Positions 3-16,545 of a stretch of DNA of 36,036 nt are shown here, piece after piece (within the stretch, counting starts at the first letter, position 1; every line of letters begins with the position of its first letter). Source of the DNA: a virus. A program made the translations under genes and the position numbers. The notes beneath the pieces are model-generated. The model did not search any database, was not told the origin of the DNA, and was given only the letters and a program-made list of their open reading frames with translations. The stretch lies in the IMG/VR virus record IMGVR_UViG_3300027760_000048, positions 1 to 36,036 of that record. One strand, written 5' to 3'.

Positions 3-572
3 GGCGATAGCGGCAGTCCTAGTACTAAATATGCCGACTTGGCTAATTTCTATAACTCCGCAAAGAACGAAGGAGTTTTGTTTGAACAGTCCAACACTTA
101 TGAAATTTTTCAACTTGGTTCAGAAGTTGTCCGAGATGATAGTTCGTTCCAAAAATACAAGGGCGAATTAGATATGGTGTTCACTAGCCCTCCTTATTTT
201 GCTAAGGAAGCGTATAGTGAAGACCCAACACAATCATATAAAAAGTTTACTGGATATGATGCATGGCGTGAAGGCTTCTTGCGTCCAACGCTAGAGACTG
301 CTGTTGAGTATTTGCGTAATGACAGATACTTACTTTGGAATATTGCTGATGCTAAGTTTGGACAAGACATGTTGCCACTTGAAAAAGATAGCAAAGACAT
401 TTTGGAATCACTCGGTATGCAATTTAAAGGTGTGGTTAAGATGGCACTAGCACAAATGCCAGGCGGTAATCGTATTGATCCTGATACTGGTTTACCTAAA
501 GCAAAGAATTTTTGCAAGGTGAATGGTATGTGGTTGAAGTATGAACCGATTTTTGTTTTCTATAAGCCATGA
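3..572 (+). CDS. DNA methyltransferase, C-terminal part (5' end outside window)
   Basis: The reading frame is open to the left edge, so the N-terminus lies outside the window. An internal TTG at 39 is unlikely to be the true start. A TSPPYF motif at about 183-200 matches catalytic motif IV (S/D/N-PPY) of amino-methyltransferases, which put a methyl group on adenine N6 or cytosine N4. The chain ends in YEPIFVFYKP, a typical ending for this class. No AdoMet-binding FxGxG motif is visible, so it should lie upstream of the window edge, giving order I then IV. The stop overlaps the ATG of a restriction-endonuclease-like gene (ATGA at 569-572), which suggests a coupled modification/restriction pair. 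Target base and recognition site cannot be read from sequence. An orphan phage methyltransferase protecting phage DNA is the alternative. Confidence 0.85.
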   Translation, partial: GDSGSPSTKYADLANFYNSAKNEGVLFEQSNTYEIFQLGSEVVRDDSSFQKYKGELDMVFTSPPYFAKEAYSEDPTQSYKKFTGYDAWREGFLRPTLETAVEYLRNDRYLLWNIADAKFGQDMLPLEKDSKDILESLGMQFKGVVKMALAQMPGGNRIDPDTGLPKAKNFCKVNGMWLKYEPIFVFYKP

Positions 573-1159
573 CTTCAATCAATGAAGTGCTGAACCATTA
601 TTGGAATACAGTAGGTAACGATCAAGATACTTTCAAAATTAGAGGTGACAATCATTTTAGTAAATTGAATGATTACTTGAATGAGAGAATACCTACTAAA
701 GGCATTCCAGAATCGTTTATAACGTGTGCATATCGTAATAGAAAAAGTTGGGATATGCATTTTCCTGATATTAACGTTGCAATTGAGTATAAGACATTTA
801 CTGCAAAAGGTATTTCTGGAAATAAAAATAATCGCATTGAAGAAGCACTAGGATCATCGATAGATTTAAAAAGAAAACATCCACATTACAAATTGGGATT
901 TATTGCGGTGTTTGCATTCAGAGAAAATTCAATACAGGCAATAAAAGCAAGAGAAATAGTTATTGAAGTATTCGATAGAATGATTGATGATGGACACTAT
1001 GATATTTTTTTACCTATCCAAACAATGGGTATCGATAATCATTTTGAATTATCGGAAAAATATTCATTGAATACTTTCATAGAGTCTATCAATTATAATA
1101 CTCAACAAAAAAATGGATCTTTGATTGTGAAATCCAATCTAAATAATTTTTTTATCTAA
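569..1159 (+). CDS. PaeR7I/XhoI-like type II restriction endonuclease
   Basis: The 196-residue product carries the signature of the PaeR7I/XhoI family (enzymes of that family cut CTCGAG). W61-D62, then E73-Y74-K75, fits D-x10-E-x-K of the PD-(D/E)XK fold. GNKNNRIEEALGSSIDL at residues 84-100 closely resembles the family motif GNNxNNRxEEAxGSAxDL. It is shorter than PaeR7I, mainly in the C-terminal region, so it may be a minimal or diverged member. The ATG overlaps the methyltransferase stop, implying translational coupling. The frame is intact and all expected active-site residues are present. Phage genomes rarely carry a restriction enzyme, so possible roles are host DNA degradation, exclusion of other phages, or a selfish module. 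The family call rests on my reading of motifs; cleavage activity and specificity are inference. Confidence 0.75.
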   Translation: MTSINEVLNHYWNTVGNDQDTFKIRGDNHFSKLNDYLNERIPTKGIPESFITCAYRNRKSWDMHFPDINVAIEYKTFTAKGISGNKNNRIEEALGSSIDLKRKHPHYKLGFIAVFAFRENSIQAIKAREIVIEVFDRMIDDGHYDIFLPIQTMGIDNHFELSEKYSLNTFIESINYNTQQKNGSLIVKSNLNNFFI

Positions 1160-1170
1160 TTATTACTCTT

Positions 1171-1809
1171 ATGATACACAACACAACACATCTTCCCAAT
1201 ATAGGAATACTCAACGCAAAATTTACTGATGCTGAATTGAAACCAATATTGAATGAGATTAATGATATTAAGAGTAAAAATTTTTCTGGAACAAAAATTA
1301 ATTCAATTTTAGCTGGAAATATGGAGCATGAATTTGAATTAACTGAGTGTCATTCCTACGTAAGTTTTTTATTGGCTCCTGTGTTAAAAACATATAATGA
1401 ACAATTTGGAGTCATTGATGAAATGTCAAGGATTTTATTTAATAAACCCACACCAACACGCCTTGCAAAATTGTGGGTGAACTTTCAGCAAAAACATGAT
1501 TTTAATCCAATACATCGTCACGGTGGGGCGGTGAGTTTTGTCATATGGATTGATATTCCGTATGATATCAATGTCGAAAAACAACATCTAACATCAAAAA
1601 ATTCTGCGTCACCTCTTCCAGGATATTTTCAATTTACATACGTGAACATTTTAGGTGAGATAACATCACATAATATTCCAGCAGACTCTAAATTTAAAAA
1701 TCAAATGGTAATGTTTCCTGCAAGATTACCTCATTGTGTATATCCATTTAGAACTTCCGATGAATATAGGATTAGTGTATCCGGAAATTTTGTATTTGAT
1801 ATGCCATGA
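1171..1809 (+). CDS. 2OG-Fe(II) oxygenase family protein
   Basis: This 212-residue protein looks like the putative 2-oxoglutarate/Fe(II) oxygenases common in T4-like aquatic phages (TIGR02466-like). H115-R116-H117 follows the NPIHRHGG pattern. A distal histidine in PARLPHCVYPFR (H188) and R200 in EYRISVSGNF would complete the iron site and the 2OG-binding arginine. The second iron ligand is histidine rather than the usual aspartate/glutamate, or is not obvious. The gene starts 11 bases after the endonuclease stop and its own stop overlaps the next gene (ATGA). Substrate unknown; such enzymes hydroxylate proteins or modified bases. Its place beside a methyltransferase raises base oxidation, but there is no direct evidence for that. 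Confidence 0.7.
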   Translation: MIHNTTHLPNIGILNAKFTDAELKPILNEINDIKSKNFSGTKINSILAGNMEHEFELTECHSYVSFLLAPVLKTYNEQFGVIDEMSRILFNKPTPTRLAKLWVNFQQKHDFNPIHRHGGAVSFVIWIDIPYDINVEKQHLTSKNSASPLPGYFQFTYVNILGEITSHNIPADSKFKNQMVMFPARLPHCVYPFRTSDEYRISVSGNFVFDMP

Positions 1810-2324
1810 TGATAAGATGCATTACGTGTGAATCTATTCTAGAAGCAAACGAAAATAATTTCAGCAATACCTTTTTGGGTAAAATCGTCAATAAAGAATT
1901 ACGTGAGAGCATATGTAAAAAATGCTATAACTCTTATCATCAAAGAAAAAACTTAGAAAAAAAATCATTGGGATTGAGTAGAAAAGGCAAAGAAATATAT
2001 CAAAGAAAATTTGATGGTGCTAATGTAATAAAAAATACATCAGGAATTATTTACATCGTTGGGCATAAAAACGGACCATATAAGGTCGGTATGACAACTG
2101 GAAGAATAGAAAGAAGAGTTACTGCATTACAAACCGCTTCACCCAAAGAAATTTATACTTACTATACTAGTCCTAAGATGAATTCCATATTTCAAATTGA
2201 AGATGATATTTTATGTGAGTTAAAACCATATAATATTAAAGGCGAATGGTTTAATCTTGACATAAAAGTATTGACAAGCATTGTAGAAACCAAAATTGCC
2301 AAAAACGCCTCTATAGACCGTTGA
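1806..2324 (+). CDS. Zinc-finger plus T5orf172 (GIY-YIG superfamily) protein
   Basis: The 172-residue protein has two parts. The N-terminus holds CxxC pairs (CITC near residue 5, CKKC near 37) that would bind zinc, as in HNH/GIY-associated DNA-binding fingers. From about residue 80, IIYIVGHKNGPYKVGMTT followed by RIERRVTALQTASP and GEWFNL is the T5orf172/Mug113 pattern, a GIY-YIG superfamily domain. The ATG overlaps the oxygenase stop. It may be a homing-type or defence-type nuclease, or a non-catalytic DNA-binding member; activity cannot be judged from sequence alone. It closes the cassette: a 150-base intergenic region with a new promoter follows. Confidence 0.75.
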   Translation: MMIRCITCESILEANENNFSNTFLGKIVNKELRESICKKCYNSYHQRKNLEKKSLGLSRKGKEIYQRKFDGANVIKNTSGIIYIVGHKNGPYKVGMTTGRIERRVTALQTASPKEIYTYYTSPKMNSIFQIEDDILCELKPYNIKGEWFNLDIKVLTSIVETKIAKNASIDR

Positions 2325-2348
2325 TTTTAAAGGGTTTTTTACCATCAT

Positions 2349-2414: not shown

Positions 2415-2442
2415 TTGACATTCATTCCTACTGTGCTATACT
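2415..2442 (+). promoter_or_regulatory. sigma70-like promoter with extended -10, upstream of 2476
   Basis: TTGACA at 2415-2420, a 16-nt spacer, then TGC-TATACT with the -10 at 2437-2442. A consensus -35 together with TGn makes this a strong host-polymerase (early) promoter. The ATG lies 33 nt beyond the -10, with AGAGGAA as ribosome site. Confidence 0.8.
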
Positions 2443-7537: not shown

Positions 7538-7821
7538 TTGACTATCGATATAATGAAGACAAGACTTTGGAGGAACTGAAGTCTTATATTGATGCAACAT
7601 ACGGGCAACATTATTCCCGTGACAAATTCCAAGCAACAGAATTCATCATCGATGGTGGACACGGTGAAGGATTCTGTATTGGAAATGTGCTGAAATATGC
7701 ACAAAGGTATGGCAAGAAAGATGGACGTAATCGTAAAGACTTGCTAAAAATTTTACACTATGCTATAATCATGCTACACGTACATGACTTGAATGAAGGA
7801 AAACAAAATGAAATTAAGTGA
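7534..7821 (+). CDS. DUF3310 family protein
   Basis: The 95-residue product has the DUF3310 pattern: a YSRDKFQATEFI stretch, then FCIGNVLKYAQRYGKKDG and a closing helix DLLKILHYAIIML. Members occur widely in phages as small helical proteins, sometimes named nucleotide kinase-like; biochemical function is not settled. The ATG overlaps the glycosyltransferase stop, and its 3' end overlaps the start of the clamp gene by 14 bases. A complete sigma70-like promoter for the clamp lies inside its last third. Confidence 0.8.
   Translation: MIDYRYNEDKTLEELKSYIDATYGQHYSRDKFQATEFIIDGGHGEGFCIGNVLKYAQRYGKKDGRNRKDLLKILHYAIIMLHVHDLNEGKQNEIK
7741..7769 (+). promoter_or_regulatory. sigma70-like promoter inside DUF3310 gene, for gp45
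   Basis: TTGCTA at 7741-7746, 17-nt spacer, TGC-TATAAT with a consensus -10 at 7764-7769 and extended TGn. The clamp ATG is 38 nt beyond the -10. It would let the clamp be expressed independently of the glycosyltransferase operon. Confidence 0.75.
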
Positions 7822-8479
7822 ATCAACAATCAATGTGTTAAAGAACTTCTCTAACATTAACTCCGGTATGCTAATCAAAAGCGGAAACGTTATTCGTACT
7901 ATTTCAAAACAACAAAACGTTTTGGGTAAAGCTACAGTAACAGAAACATTTGATAGTGACTTTGTTATATATGACTTGAATCGCTTTTTGGGTTTGGTTG
8001 GTTCTCTTACCGATCCCGAAATCGCAATCAATGATGCCGCAAAGAATCTGACAATCAAGTCTGGCTCTTCAAAAACTACATACGGACTTTCTGATGAGTC
8101 CATGATTGTTGCACCGCCTGCGAAAGAGATTAAAGTAGAAAATGCGGAAGTGAATTTTCGACTGACAAAAGACGATTTGAATCAAGTATTGAAGTTGTCT
8201 GGCATCTTGGGTCTTCCAAACATTGCAGTTGTTGGTGATGGCTCTGAAATCTCTATCTCTGCACTTGATGTTAAGAATACTGACTCTGATAATTTCTCCA
8301 TCAAAGTTGGTGAGACTTCATCCAATTTCAAAATGATTTTCAATACAGAAAACTTGAAGATGATTCCCGGCACATATAATGTTGCAATTTCATCAAAGGG
8401 TATTTCGCATTTCAAGCACAGCACAGACCCAATTGAATATTGGATTGCTACTGAAGCTGGTTCTAAGTACGAGGGTTAA
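7808..8479 (+). CDS. 45: gp45-like sliding clamp
   Basis: The 223-residue protein matches T4 gp45 in size (228) and pattern: MKLSESTINVLKNFSNIN at the start, IYDLNRFLGLV, and a C-terminal YWIATEAGSKYEG. It forms the trimeric DNA polymerase processivity ring and, in T4, also activates late transcription with gp55/gp33. I chose the ATG at 7808, preceded by AAGGA at a 7-nt spacing, over an in-frame ATG 15 bases upstream. It begins a T4-like cluster (45, dsbA-like, 44, 62, regA) and has its own promoter at 7741-7769. In T4 its translation is repressed by RegA, whose gene lies nearby. Confidence 0.93.
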   Translation: MKLSESTINVLKNFSNINSGMLIKSGNVIRTISKQQNVLGKATVTETFDSDFVIYDLNRFLGLVGSLTDPEIAINDAAKNLTIKSGSSKTTYGLSDESMIVAPPAKEIKVENAEVNFRLTKDDLNQVLKLSGILGLPNIAVVGDGSEISISALDVKNTDSDNFSIKVGETSSNFKMIFNTENLKMIPGTYNVAISSKGISHFKHSTDPIEYWIATEAGSKYEG

Positions 8480-8811: not shown

Positions 8812-9750
8812 ATGCTACAAGATTATTTGTGGGTAGAAAAATATCGTCCTCAAACTGTCGAAGATACAATTCTTCCGGCAGACATGAAAGCAACATTTCA
8901 AAAATTTGTTGACGATAAAAATGTACCAAATCTAATTCTTACAGGCGGTCCTGGCGTTGGTAAGACTACCATCGCTAGGGCTATGCTTGAAGAACTTGGA
9001 TGTACTTATATTGTTATTAACGGATCGATGAACGGAAACATCGATACACTACGCAACGAAATTAAAAACTTTGCATCTACCGTTTCATTTTCTGGTGGAA
9101 GAAAATATGTTATACTTGACGAGGCTGATTATCTTAACCCGCAATCTACTCAACCCGCATTACGGAACTTCATGGAAGAGTTTTCTGCTAACTGTGGTTT
9201 TATCCTTACTTGCAACTTTCTTAATCGTATCATCGCCCCTCTTCACAGCCGATGCTCTGTTGTACAGTTTAAGATAACCAATTCTGATAAGCCAAAACTT
9301 GCTGGTCGTTTTATGAAACGTGTGACTGGCATTTTGCAAAAAGAAAATATTGAGTTTGAAGAGAAAGTTGTTGCTGAACTTATTATGAAACACTTCCCTG
9401 ATTGGAGGCGTGTTCTTAATGAACTACAACGTTATGCGGCCACAGGTAAGATTGATACTGGAATTCTTGCAAATATTTCAAGTGACAATTTCAAGGCATT
9501 AACAGAAAAATTAAAAGCAAAAGACTTTACTGGTATGCGTAAGTGGGTTGCAGAGAATCTTGACAATGAACCATCCGTTCTATTCAAACGAATCTTTGAC
9601 AATACTAATGAATATTTGGTGCCAGATTCTGTTCCACGTATGGTATTAATGCTTGCTGAATATCAATACAAGTCTGCATTTGTTGCCGATCAAGAAATTA
9701 ATTTTGTTGCATTCTTGACTGAAGCAATGATGGACTGCGAATTCAAATGA
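8812..9750 (+). CDS. 44: gp44-like clamp loader large subunit
   Basis: The 312-residue AAA+ protein resembles T4 gp44 (319). It begins WVEKYRPQTVEDTILP, a clamp-loader signature. Walker A is GGPGVGKT (residues 45-52), Walker B is ILDEAD (about 101-106), and the SRC arginine-finger motif is at 146-148. With gp62 it forms the 4:1 loader that opens the gp45 ring and places it on primer ends. AAGG at 8801-8804 is the ribosome site. Its stop overlaps the start of the next gene (ATGA). Unlike T4, where 44 and 62 are adjacent, an extra gene lies between them here. Confidence 0.95.
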   Translation: MLQDYLWVEKYRPQTVEDTILPADMKATFQKFVDDKNVPNLILTGGPGVGKTTIARAMLEELGCTYIVINGSMNGNIDTLRNEIKNFASTVSFSGGRKYVILDEADYLNPQSTQPALRNFMEEFSANCGFILTCNFLNRIIAPLHSRCSVVQFKITNSDKPKLAGRFMKRVTGILQKENIEFEEKVVAELIMKHFPDWRRVLNELQRYAATGKIDTGILANISSDNFKALTEKLKAKDFTGMRKWVAENLDNEPSVLFKRIFDNTNEYLVPDSVPRMVLMLAEYQYKSAFVADQEINFVAFLTEAMMDCEFK

Positions 9751-10178
9751 TTAATAAAAAATTTGATCGTTCATTATACAACAAATATGATAATGTTGGT
9801 AAGAATGTAGTAAAAAATTATTTCAAATCTAAATTAGACATAGATGCTATAGACAATTCAGATTTATATGGGGTGGATTTAATACTAACAAAAAATAATA
9901 ATGTTGTTGGATATGCAGAAGTAGAAGTTAGAAATAATTGGGATAAAGATAATTTCCCCTTTGACACATTAAATGTTCCTAGTAGAAAAAAGAAGTTACT
10001 TGAAAATGAATTGCCCACATTTTTCTTTTCCGTAAATAAAATTTTAACTAGAATGTTTTGCTGTAAAGCCGAAGTTGTGTTACAATGTCCTCTTATTGAA
10101 AATAAAAACAAATATGTAAAAGACGGAGAATATTTCTACAAAGTTCCAGTAAACACCTTAAAGTTAATTATATTATGA
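9747..10178 (+). CDS. Possible PD-(D/E)XK-like protein between gp44 and gp62
   Basis: The 143-residue protein is not firmly recognised. Residues 40-62 read YGVDLILTKNN then GYAEVEVR: an acidic residue (D44) followed by E58-x-E60 on a strand, a layout seen in PD-(D/E)XK nucleases, though the usual lysine is replaced by glutamate. The gene sits by ATGA overlaps on both sides inside the clamp-loader operon, so it is co-translated with gp44 and gp62. Its composition is rich in Asn/Lys and codon use looks more AT-rich than gp44, hinting at later acquisition. Function unknown; a nuclease or a repair accessory is a guess. Confidence 0.6.
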   Translation: MINKKFDRSLYNKYDNVGKNVVKNYFKSKLDIDAIDNSDLYGVDLILTKNNNVVGYAEVEVRNNWDKDNFPFDTLNVPSRKKKLLENELPTFFFSVNKILTRMFCCKAEVVLQCPLIENKNKYVKDGEYFYKVPVNTLKLIIL

Positions 10179-14052: not shown

Positions 14053-16545
14053 ATGAAATTTTATACGCACTTTTCTAAACTTGGCAATAATATTCTTGTT
14101 CGTGGTTACAACAACGGCAAGAAATTTATTGATAAAGTTGAATACAATCCAACTTTATATTTACCATCCAAAGATGGTGACTATAGAACGTTGGATGGAC
14201 AATCAGTTGCGCCTGTGTCCCAAGGCACAATGCGTGATGCTACTGAGTTTATGAAACGATATGAAGACGTTGACAACTTCAAAGTATATGGCTCAACAAA
14301 CTTCCCATACGTTTATATCAATGAAGCATATCCAGGCAAAGTAGATTATGATCCAGAACAAATTAAGATTGCAAATATTGACATTGAGGTTGGCTCTGAG
14401 AATGGCTTTCCTGAACCTGCATCTGCGACTGAGCCAATTACTGCCATCACGTTTAAGATAGCTGGACACTTCTATGTGTTTGGTTGTGGTGACTTTGAAA
14501 CCAATCGTGATGACGTAACATATCTCAAGTGCCGTGATGAAAATAATCTTACCATGCGTTTCTTGGACATGTGGGAAGAAACATCACCAGACATTGTGAC
14601 TGGTTGGAACATTCAATTTTTTGATATTCCATATCTGAACAATCGTATCACAAAACTCATGGGCGAGAATACTGCAAAGCGTTTGTCACCATTTCGTAGA
14701 ATCGGTGAACGTACAACTACGATTCACAATAAGCAACAAGTAGCATTCGACTTGGTAGGTATTGCTATTCTTGATTACATTGAATTGTACAAGAAGTTTA
14801 CTTACTCACAACAAGAAAGTTTTAGTCTTAATCACATTGCATACTTAGAACTTGGTGAGAAGAAGTTAGACTACTCTGAAGTCGAAAGTCTGCATCAGTT
14901 ATACCGAACAAACTTTCAAAAGTTTATTGAATATAACATCCATGACGTTGAACTTGTAGATCGCATTGATGCTAAGATGCAATTGATTGACATGGCACTT
15001 GCGCTTGCATATGACGCCAAAGTTAATTACACCGATGTGTTCACGCAAGTACGCATGTGGGATACTTTGATTCATAATGAATTGATTGAACAGAATATTG
15101 TTGTGCCACAGAATGTTCGTACACCAAAAGACGAACAGTATGCTGGCGCTTATGTGAAAGACCCAATCGTTGGTATGCACGAATGGGTTGTATCATTTGA
15201 CTTGAACTCATTGTATCCACACTTGATTATGCAATACAATGTTTCACCTGAAACAATTGTTGAAGGTCGCCACACTAGTATCTCTATTGATAATTTGCTG
15301 AACGGTGAATATCAAGCGCAAGGAGAATATTGCATGGCAGCCAATGGACATTATTTCAAGCGTGACAAGCAAGGCTTCTTGCCTGCTATGATGCAACGCA
15401 TGTATGATGATCGTTCATTGTACAAAAAGAAAATGATTGAGGCACAAAAGGCTTACGAAAAAGAAACCGATAAAGAACGTAAACGTGAAATAACAAATCA
15501 GATTTCAAAGTACAAGAACTTGCAGTTGGCAAAAAAAGTACAGTTGAACTCCGCCTATGGCGCACTTGGTAATCAATATTTTAGGTTCTTTGACATTAGA
15601 CAAGCAGAGGCAATTACTCTGTCTGGTCAGTTATCCATTCGCTGGATTGAAATGAAGTTGAATGGTTACCTAAACAAATTATTGAAAACTAAAGAGGTCG
15701 ATTATGTTATTGCATCGGATACAGATTCTGTATACGTCAATCTTGGTCCGTTGGTACATATGGTCTACGGACAAAAGAGTGAAACGAAAGTTGAAACGAT
15801 TGTTGATTTCGTCAACAAAGCATGTATCGAAAAATTCGAACCATTCATCGATAAAGCATATCAAGAACTAGCAGACTACATGAATGCATTTGAACAGAAG
15901 ATGCAGATGAAACGTGAAGTGATTGCCAACAAAGGTATCTGGACTGCAAAGAAGCGTTACATTCTAAACGTGTATGATTCTGAAGGTGTTCGATTTGCAG
16001 AACCAAAGTTGAAGATGATGGGTATCGAAGCCGTTAAGTCTTCCACACCAATGTCGTGCAGAGAGAAGATTAAAGAGTCATTGAAGATTGTGATGAATGG
16101 CAACGAACAAGACTTTCAATCATTCGTAGAAGCATTCAAACAAGAATTCAAAACTCTTCCATTTGAAGACATTGCATTCCCACGTGGAGTTAGTGACCTA
16201 TCTAAATATATGGGCAGTACGGAACTATATTCAAAAGGCACACCTATGCATGTGCGTGGTGCGATAATGTTTAATGCGTTTTTAAAGAAGTACAAACTGA
16301 CTAAGAAGTATCAGCTTATTCAGGATGGCGATAAGACAAAATTTTGTTATATGAAAGTTCCGAATCCCGTTCAAGAAAATGTGTTTTCTATTCTGACTGT
16401 ACTACCAAAAGAGTTTGGTGTAGAAAAATATATCGACTATGACACACAGTTTGATAAAGCATATCTTGATCCACTAAAAACAATTGTAAACACAATTGGT
16501 TGGAGAACCGAACGTGTTTCTTCATTGGAGAACTTTTTCACATGA
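14053..16545 (+). CDS. 43: Family B DNA polymerase (gp43)
   Basis: The 830-residue protein is the replicative polymerase. Exonuclease motif I is NIDIEVGSENGFPEP at about residue 110. Polymerase motif A is DLNSLYPHLI near 383, motif B is KVQLNSAYGALGNQYFRF near 496, and motif C is ASDTDSVY near 555. T4 gp43 is 898 residues. It carries out leading- and lagging-strand synthesis with gp45 and gp44/62. No frameshift, intein or intron is seen. In T4 it lies beside regA and represses its own translation; here it is some 3 kb downstream of regA behind accessory genes, with its own promoter. The start has no Shine-Dalgarno, unusual for a major early gene. Confidence 0.97.
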   Translation: MKFYTHFSKLGNNILVRGYNNGKKFIDKVEYNPTLYLPSKDGDYRTLDGQSVAPVSQGTMRDATEFMKRYEDVDNFKVYGSTNFPYVYINEAYPGKVDYDPEQIKIANIDIEVGSENGFPEPASATEPITAITFKIAGHFYVFGCGDFETNRDDVTYLKCRDENNLTMRFLDMWEETSPDIVTGWNIQFFDIPYLNNRITKLMGENTAKRLSPFRRIGERTTTIHNKQQVAFDLVGIAILDYIELYKKFTYSQQESFSLNHIAYLELGEKKLDYSEVESLHQLYRTNFQKFIEYNIHDVELVDRIDAKMQLIDMALALAYDAKVNYTDVFTQVRMWDTLIHNELIEQNIVVPQNVRTPKDEQYAGAYVKDPIVGMHEWVVSFDLNSLYPHLIMQYNVSPETIVEGRHTSISIDNLLNGEYQAQGEYCMAANGHYFKRDKQGFLPAMMQRMYDDRSLYKKKMIEAQKAYEKETDKERKREITNQISKYKNLQLAKKVQLNSAYGALGNQYFRFFDIRQAEAITLSGQLSIRWIEMKLNGYLNKLLKTKEVDYVIASDTDSVYVNLGPLVHMVYGQKSETKVETIVDFVNKACIEKFEPFIDKAYQELADYMNAFEQKMQMKREVIANKGIWTAKKRYILNVYDSEGVRFAEPKLKMMGIEAVKSSTPMSCREKIKESLKIVMNGNEQDFQSFVEAFKQEFKTLPFEDIAFPRGVSDLSKYMGSTELYSKGTPMHVRGAIMFNAFLKKYKLTKKYQLIQDGDKTKFCYMKVPNPVQENVFSILTVLPKEFGVEKYIDYDTQFDKAYLDPLKTIVNTIGWRTERVSSLENFFT

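Follow-up and report, generated by a model that had tools for sequence, protein, structure and literature searches.

A XhoI-family endonuclease gene with a polymerase-like C-terminal tail in an exchangeable slot of T4-like phages

Behind a DNA methyltransferase gene, M, a T4-like phage contig carries a gene for a protein of the XhoI/PaeR7I endonuclease family, R, that ends in a hydrophobic tail resembling the one of the phage's own DNA polymerase, gp43. The reading that is favoured here, with a modest degree of confidence and on sequence grounds, is that R is an endonuclease with site specificity, tethered to the replisome of the phage and probably directed against competing phage genomes. The family of R, its intact catalytic residues, the slot in which its gene resides, the sequence and the rarity of its tail and the purifying selection acting on it were all computed. 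The window, i.e., the whole stretch of DNA that was analysed, is a complete IMG/VR record of exactly 36,036 bases. Its features are listed in Table 1, together with those of related contigs.

An earlier note, made from the letters of the window, had assigned it to a T4-like phage, which is confirmed by clear homologues of gp43, gp44, gp45, gp62, RegA and UvsX. The coordinates, reading frames, ATGA overlap and TSPPYF motif that it gave for M and R are all as described, and W61-D62, E73-x-K75 and GNKNNRIEEALGSSIDL are indeed present in the 196-residue R. Likewise, M is a methyltransferase with an SPPY motif, as supported by its Pfam match, and the ATGA overlap agrees with the proposed translational coupling from M to R. 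The note was right about the two overlapping genes and about the nuclease features of R, but it overlooked that R has a tail of clamp-binding type and that its gene occupies a cargo slot, in which other nuclease-like genes can take its place. It is this clamp-type tail, together with the exchangeable nuclease slot, that constitutes the added and more interesting part.

Table 1. Features of the window and of related contigs (positions in the window unless a contig or record is named).
Feature	Position	Strand	Basis or remark
M, 3′ 189 codons, N4C/N6A-type DNA methyltransferase	3-572	+	motif IV TSPPYF; PF01555 E 6.7e-5
R, 196-aa XhoI/PaeR7I-family endonuclease, ATGA overlap with M	569-1159	+	Pfam, PADLOC, alignment, model, hhalign
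Predicted catalytic residues D62 (752-754), E73 (785-787), K75 (791-793)	752-793	+	unchanged across 38 homologues from phages and bacteria
Family signature N87-D99 (NNRIEEALGSSID)	827-865	+	alignment
C-terminal extension of R past the XhoI domain	1097-1156	+	last 12 residues pLDDT below 50
Putative gp45 clamp-binding motif SNLNNFFI	1133-1156	+	
2OG-Fe(II) oxygenase, second cargo gene	1171-1809	+	PF13759 E 2.2e-8
T5orf172/MUG113 GIY-YIG-type protein, third cargo gene	1806-2324	+	PF10544 E 1.5e-11
Conserved slot end (GTTGATTTTAAAGGGTTTTTT)	2320-2345	+	directly after M stop in empty-slot relatives
Promoter-like site of next gene, TTGACA-16-TATACT	2415-2442	+	conserved after slot
gp45 sliding clamp, presumed partner of R tail	7793-8479	+	phrog_223 E 2.3e-73
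143-aa protein in gp44-gp62 interval	9747-10178		ATGA overlap with gp44 stop; weak PDDEXK_14 match (E 0.05)
gp43 DNA polymerase	14053-16545	+	clamp-binding-type tail SSLENFFT at 16519-16542
R copies with gp44-like end	L284:4995-5519, L177:1675-2199, L292:183-707		
Unclassified 223-244-aa family with D...GIDVKS	L012:3478-4212, L027:6599-7321, L228:4995-5708, L231:4995-5666		
Tailed methyltransferase and methyltransferase-like proteins of S-CAM7	KU686212:46845-47633, 43820-44221, 50736-51137		

Family and Fold of R

Judged by profile comparison and by its predicted structure, R is a true homologue of the XhoI/PaeR7I family (PF04555) and not a chance match; it has a PD-(D/E)XK fold and belongs to a distinct phage clade. 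As a single sequence, R of the window scores under the 25-bit cut-off of the Pfam XhoI model (19.9 bits, E 7.6e-4), as does a homologue with 88% identity to it (24.3 bits, E 3.3e-5), and single-sequence searches of PDB and NCBIfam returned no match. The type II restriction endonuclease models of PADLOC (REase_II) match R at 3e-6 to 3e-7. Homologues were obtained from other phages by IMG/VR scans (36-88% identity) and from bacteria by a scan of genome contigs. When 12 phage R proteins were compared with 21 bacterial or prophage XhoI homologues by hhalign, the match reached 99.4% (E 5.5e-22) over 169 columns, and in an alignment of 38 sequences 13 columns are invariant, i.e., W12, K59, W61, D62, E73, K75, R89, E91, E92, G95, D99, G110 and F135. 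The claim of a PaeR7I/XhoI-type PD-(D/E)XK enzyme is thereby sustained.

The structure prediction that had been proposed as a check, alongside a profile comparison, points in the same direction, as the model of R is confident (pLDDT 88.9, pTM 0.85) and adopts the PD-(D/E)XK fold. Its structural comparison is led by restriction enzymes (PspGI with Z 10.4, BbvCI with 9.8); PspGI, BbvCI and BstEII, among the best structural matches, range from Z 8.7 to 10.4, and NucC also ranks high with 9.7. Foldseek alone gave zero PDB matches below 1e-3 with this model. With PaeR7I and XhoI, R shares the PD-(D/E)XK core, the W-D and E-x-K residues, the NNRxEEALGSxxDL signature and the domain order. It differs from them in its size (about 196 vs about 240 aa), in a shorter N-terminus without the REGAF...PW loop, in the extra clamp-type tail and in having no fixed N6A (NPPY) partner. 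In the tree, the phage R proteins form one deep clade separate from the bacterial ones (100/100), and dN/dS values of 0.10-0.26 indicate purifying selection.

A search of 50,697 records of isolated phages found no R homologue, only chance-level matches at E about 2, and a plasmid search with R retrieved only distant PaeR7I enzymes. Matches in BFVD to proteins of S-CAM1 and S-CAM7 were not located within the examined part of the S-CAM7 record.

The C-Terminal Tail

R of the window ends in ...IVKSNLNNFFI, nearly letter-identical to the ...ERVSSLENFFT of gp43 of the same phage. In T4, gp43, gp55 and gp33 bind the sliding clamp gp45 via similar, interchangeable hydrophobic C-termini, the one of gp55 being placed on a variable linker (PMC2988020). 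R has in common with these proteins a hydrophobic C-terminal motif behind a flexible stretch, but they are polymerase or transcription factors and not nucleases. The PCNA-binding motif is Qxx[I/L]xxFF (PMC9690074). By its sequence, by the disorder of the last 12 residues in the model and by its rarity in the background, the R tail fits the gp43-type hydrophobic motif on a flexible linker; the acidic component of the clamp-binding motif is absent from the window copy.

An L-x-x-[F/Y]-F end, followed by no more than three residues, is present in all seven R proteins of the window and L168-L173 groups, seven tails that are non-independent owing to homology within a clade, and it is absent from the bacterial and prophage XhoI rows of the 38-sequence alignment. 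Among 1,370 distinct C-termini (ORFs of at least 100 aa in T4-like contigs), the pattern L..[FY]F.{0,7} is seen in 26: seven R proteins, four copies of a slot protein of 237-244 aa, six gp43 proteins, three methyltransferase-like proteins of S-CAM7, one RegA-like protein and five others. In L180, a coherent variant is shared by gp43 (STLEDLFA), R (TTTLTELMV) and the neighbouring methyltransferase (QTLSEFLA). The phage R lineages L177/L284-L292, L293, L283 and L295 are untailed, and untailed proteins end exactly at the start of the extension. Since several lineages lack it, tethering is not required across the whole R family. Moreover, the tree does not place the two tailed clades as sisters, which implies either two origins of the tail or several losses.

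Restriction-modification genes are annotated in T4-like cyanophages such as S-CAM7 (KU686212), which encodes a type II restriction subunit and an adenine methyltransferase ending in RRLTQFFN; two 133-aa methyltransferase-like proteins of this phage end in GLEAFF and its gp43 in TLESFFG. These restriction-modification genes, some with similar methyltransferase tails, belong to other protein families than M and R, and their tails are unmentioned in the records and literature found. The idea that such tails are a general trait of phage methyltransferases was dropped, as they occur in three to four of seven T4-like or marine enzymes and in none of four from other phages, which are too few.

A Cargo Slot Behind M

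M is truncated at its 5′ side by the left end of the record. The full-length protein, which the earlier note had hoped to complete, is supplied by the close relatives L002 and L003 (533 aa, with motif I DPSSGWGGR ahead of TSPPYF). The M family was found by scan in at least 270 IMG/VR contigs, 80 of which were fetched; L002 and L003 are the only ones among these 80 with R behind M. At M identities of at least 93% and with a readable slot, R follows M in three of about 18 loci, the window included, and the slot is empty behind M copies of 97-98% identity.

In cargo-free close relatives, the distance from the M stop to the following gene is 157-159 bp. The spacer of these empty slots starts close to TTGATTTTAAAGGGTTTTTT and bears a promoter-like TTGAC...TATACT, and this sequence recurs behind the final cargo gene of the window and of further loaded loci. 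Because of this recurrence, the M stop codon is, on sequence comparison, the edge of a cargo slot lying between the M stop and the M terminator. Its contents vary: R, a 2OG oxygenase and a T5orf172 protein in the window, 2OG oxygenase and R in L002, R in L003, a 2OG oxygenase in L014, hydroxylase-like proteins in L010 and L018, a 240-244-aa protein with a D...D-V-K-S motif in L012, L016 and L027, and two oxygenases with another PD-(D/E)XK-like protein of 195 aa in L028. The oxygenase thus stands before R in L002, after R in the window and alone in L014. The GIY-YIG/T5orf172 protein may serve the slot as its mobility partner.

The protein with the D...D-V-K-S motif may be nuclease-like, to go by this motif alone. 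Its predicted structure is of low confidence (pLDDT 32, five sequences), and no convincing match to it was found in Pfam, PADLOC, PHROG or PDB sequences. The unclassified D...GIDVKS family carries an L..FF tail in or near the M slot; the L231 copy, which lies outside the slot beside a QueE-like gene, is untailed.

R Homologues in Other Phages

In L168-L173 and L182, R is found among unrelated genes in hypervariable stretches. No member of the M family was found in these contigs, nor PF01555 in six tested contigs of this set. A search for R among relatives of the solitary-R group, 29 fragment contigs examined without a positive control, found none. In L181 (record G009, 145 kb), several in-frame stops and frameshifts interrupt both R and gp43, owing either to poor assembly or to a reassigned stop codon.

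In L177 and L284-L292, R comes after gp44. In L284, L177 and L292, its last residues copy the C-terminus of the gp44 before it (CECEFK, MECELK and MSCKFK vs AECEFK, VECEFK and MSCEFK), as if it had been inserted with a duplication of the gp44 3′ end. Since R homologues occupy it in L177, L284-L292 and L293, the gp44-gp62 interval is a second nuclease hotspot. In the window, this interval holds a 143-aa protein (Table 1).

Proposed Replisome Tethering and Alternative Explanations

The favoured reading, in which R is tethered to the replisome, sees R as a phage-adapted XhoI-family PD-(D/E)XK endonuclease that forms exchangeable cargo between the stop codon of a core methyltransferase and its terminator; as it is carried there, it is presumably produced together with M. 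We infer clamp binding, the cleavage site, the target and the protection. The L-x-x-F-F extension mimics the gp43 tail and probably binds gp45. The phage loads gp45 onto its own replicating DNA, so a clamp tether would direct R to phage DNA in preference to the host chromosome, placing it on DNA that bears clamps, i.e., replicating or late-transcribed phage DNA. The sliding clamp is conserved among T4-like phages, which makes the DNA of a co-infecting relative a plausible target. The likely use would then be cleavage of co-infecting related phage genomes at a XhoI-like site, the phage sparing itself by lacking sites, by methylation through M, or both.

A genuine type II restriction-modification pair, as the earlier note had proposed, in which M methylates the site of R and protects the phage, R restricts competitors or host DNA and the tail is secondary, is a clearly less probable explanation. 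It draws on the ATGA coupling and on the finding that R has a member of the M family as its neighbour in either order, M-R in the window and R directly before an M homologue (49% identical) in the more distant phage L295; in addition, R is directly followed by a PF01555-like methyltransferase (TSPPY) and then gp43 in L180 and L283, and a D12-type methyltransferase lies about 0.4-1.3 kb beyond R in L177/L284-L292 where the contig is long enough. However, M usually occurs without R, and R has three unrelated methyltransferase families as neighbours or none, as in the L182 contig (G010), where 135.8 kb encode no protein of at least 80 aa with a [DNS]PP[YFW] motif. M is present beside R, and the pairing is only partly supported: M and R as a complete type II pair are unproven, although in some lineages R and a methyltransferase may be partners. 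Deletion of the PaeR7I methyltransferase has been reported neither to be lethal to the cell nor to leave restriction active (PMC3488263), so that a PaeR7I/XhoI-family enzyme that works alone or with a loose partner is "not impossible".

The sporadic presence of R at several unrelated insertion places, the changes of order within the slot (M-R-2OG, M-2OG-R, M-R) and the gp44-like ends would also suit a freestanding endonuclease of homing type, which would propagate its own slot through cleavage of phages lacking it. This is improbable, as the invariant residues match a type II enzyme family, the nearest folds are restriction enzymes, the slot also bears non-nucleases (2OG oxygenases) alone and no single insertion site is common to the R copies. 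More doubtful still is a clamp-stimulated repair nuclease cutting mismatched DNA, like NucS/EndoMS, which has the same architecture of a nuclease with a C-terminal clamp motif (PIP) and is activated by clamp binding (PMC8228993). NucS/EndoMS is nevertheless a cellular, mismatch-specific enzyme of another nuclease family; R belongs to the XhoI family, is devoid of the NucS-type N-terminal domain and has a sporadic cargo distribution unlike that of a repair function.

Replisome tethering of R, if true, would account for the ability of a lytic phage to direct a site-specific nuclease against the genomes of rival phages during co-infection, and it predicts that the tail peptide binds gp45 and that deletion of the tail shifts the target. 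The common view of restriction enzymes is that they diffuse freely. More tentatively, T4-like phages may possess a class of replication-coupled restriction enzymes, in which unrelated nucleases and some methyltransferases each gained the clamp tail of the polymerase, so that cutting and marking would ride the phage clamp, selective for phage DNA, as an inter-phage weapon. The slot behind the core methyltransferase, which swaps different nuclease-like genes, is a place to seek more of them. HHPV4I is a known virus-encoded restriction enzyme, for which the exclusion of other viruses has been raised; it differs from R in being a modification-dependent SRA-domain enzyme of an archaeal pleomorphic virus that acts on methylated DNA (PMC10101028).

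Depletion of Candidate Sites

CTCGAG is absent from the R-bearing genomes examined and also from close R-less genomes. Among pentamers of equal composition, CTCGA/TCGAG is depleted most strongly in three solitary-R sets (in one of them, 2 were found and 154 expected) and ranks second in the window group. Many R-less relatives are depleted too (ratios 0 to 0.65); site avoidance was for this reason rejected as proof of R specificity, and the depletion is compatible with a XhoI-like site or self-avoidance. Whole contigs of the window group lack CGCG and have far fewer GATC, AGCT and GGCC sites than expected, whether they carry R or not, a pattern that suggests heavy restriction pressure from the host.
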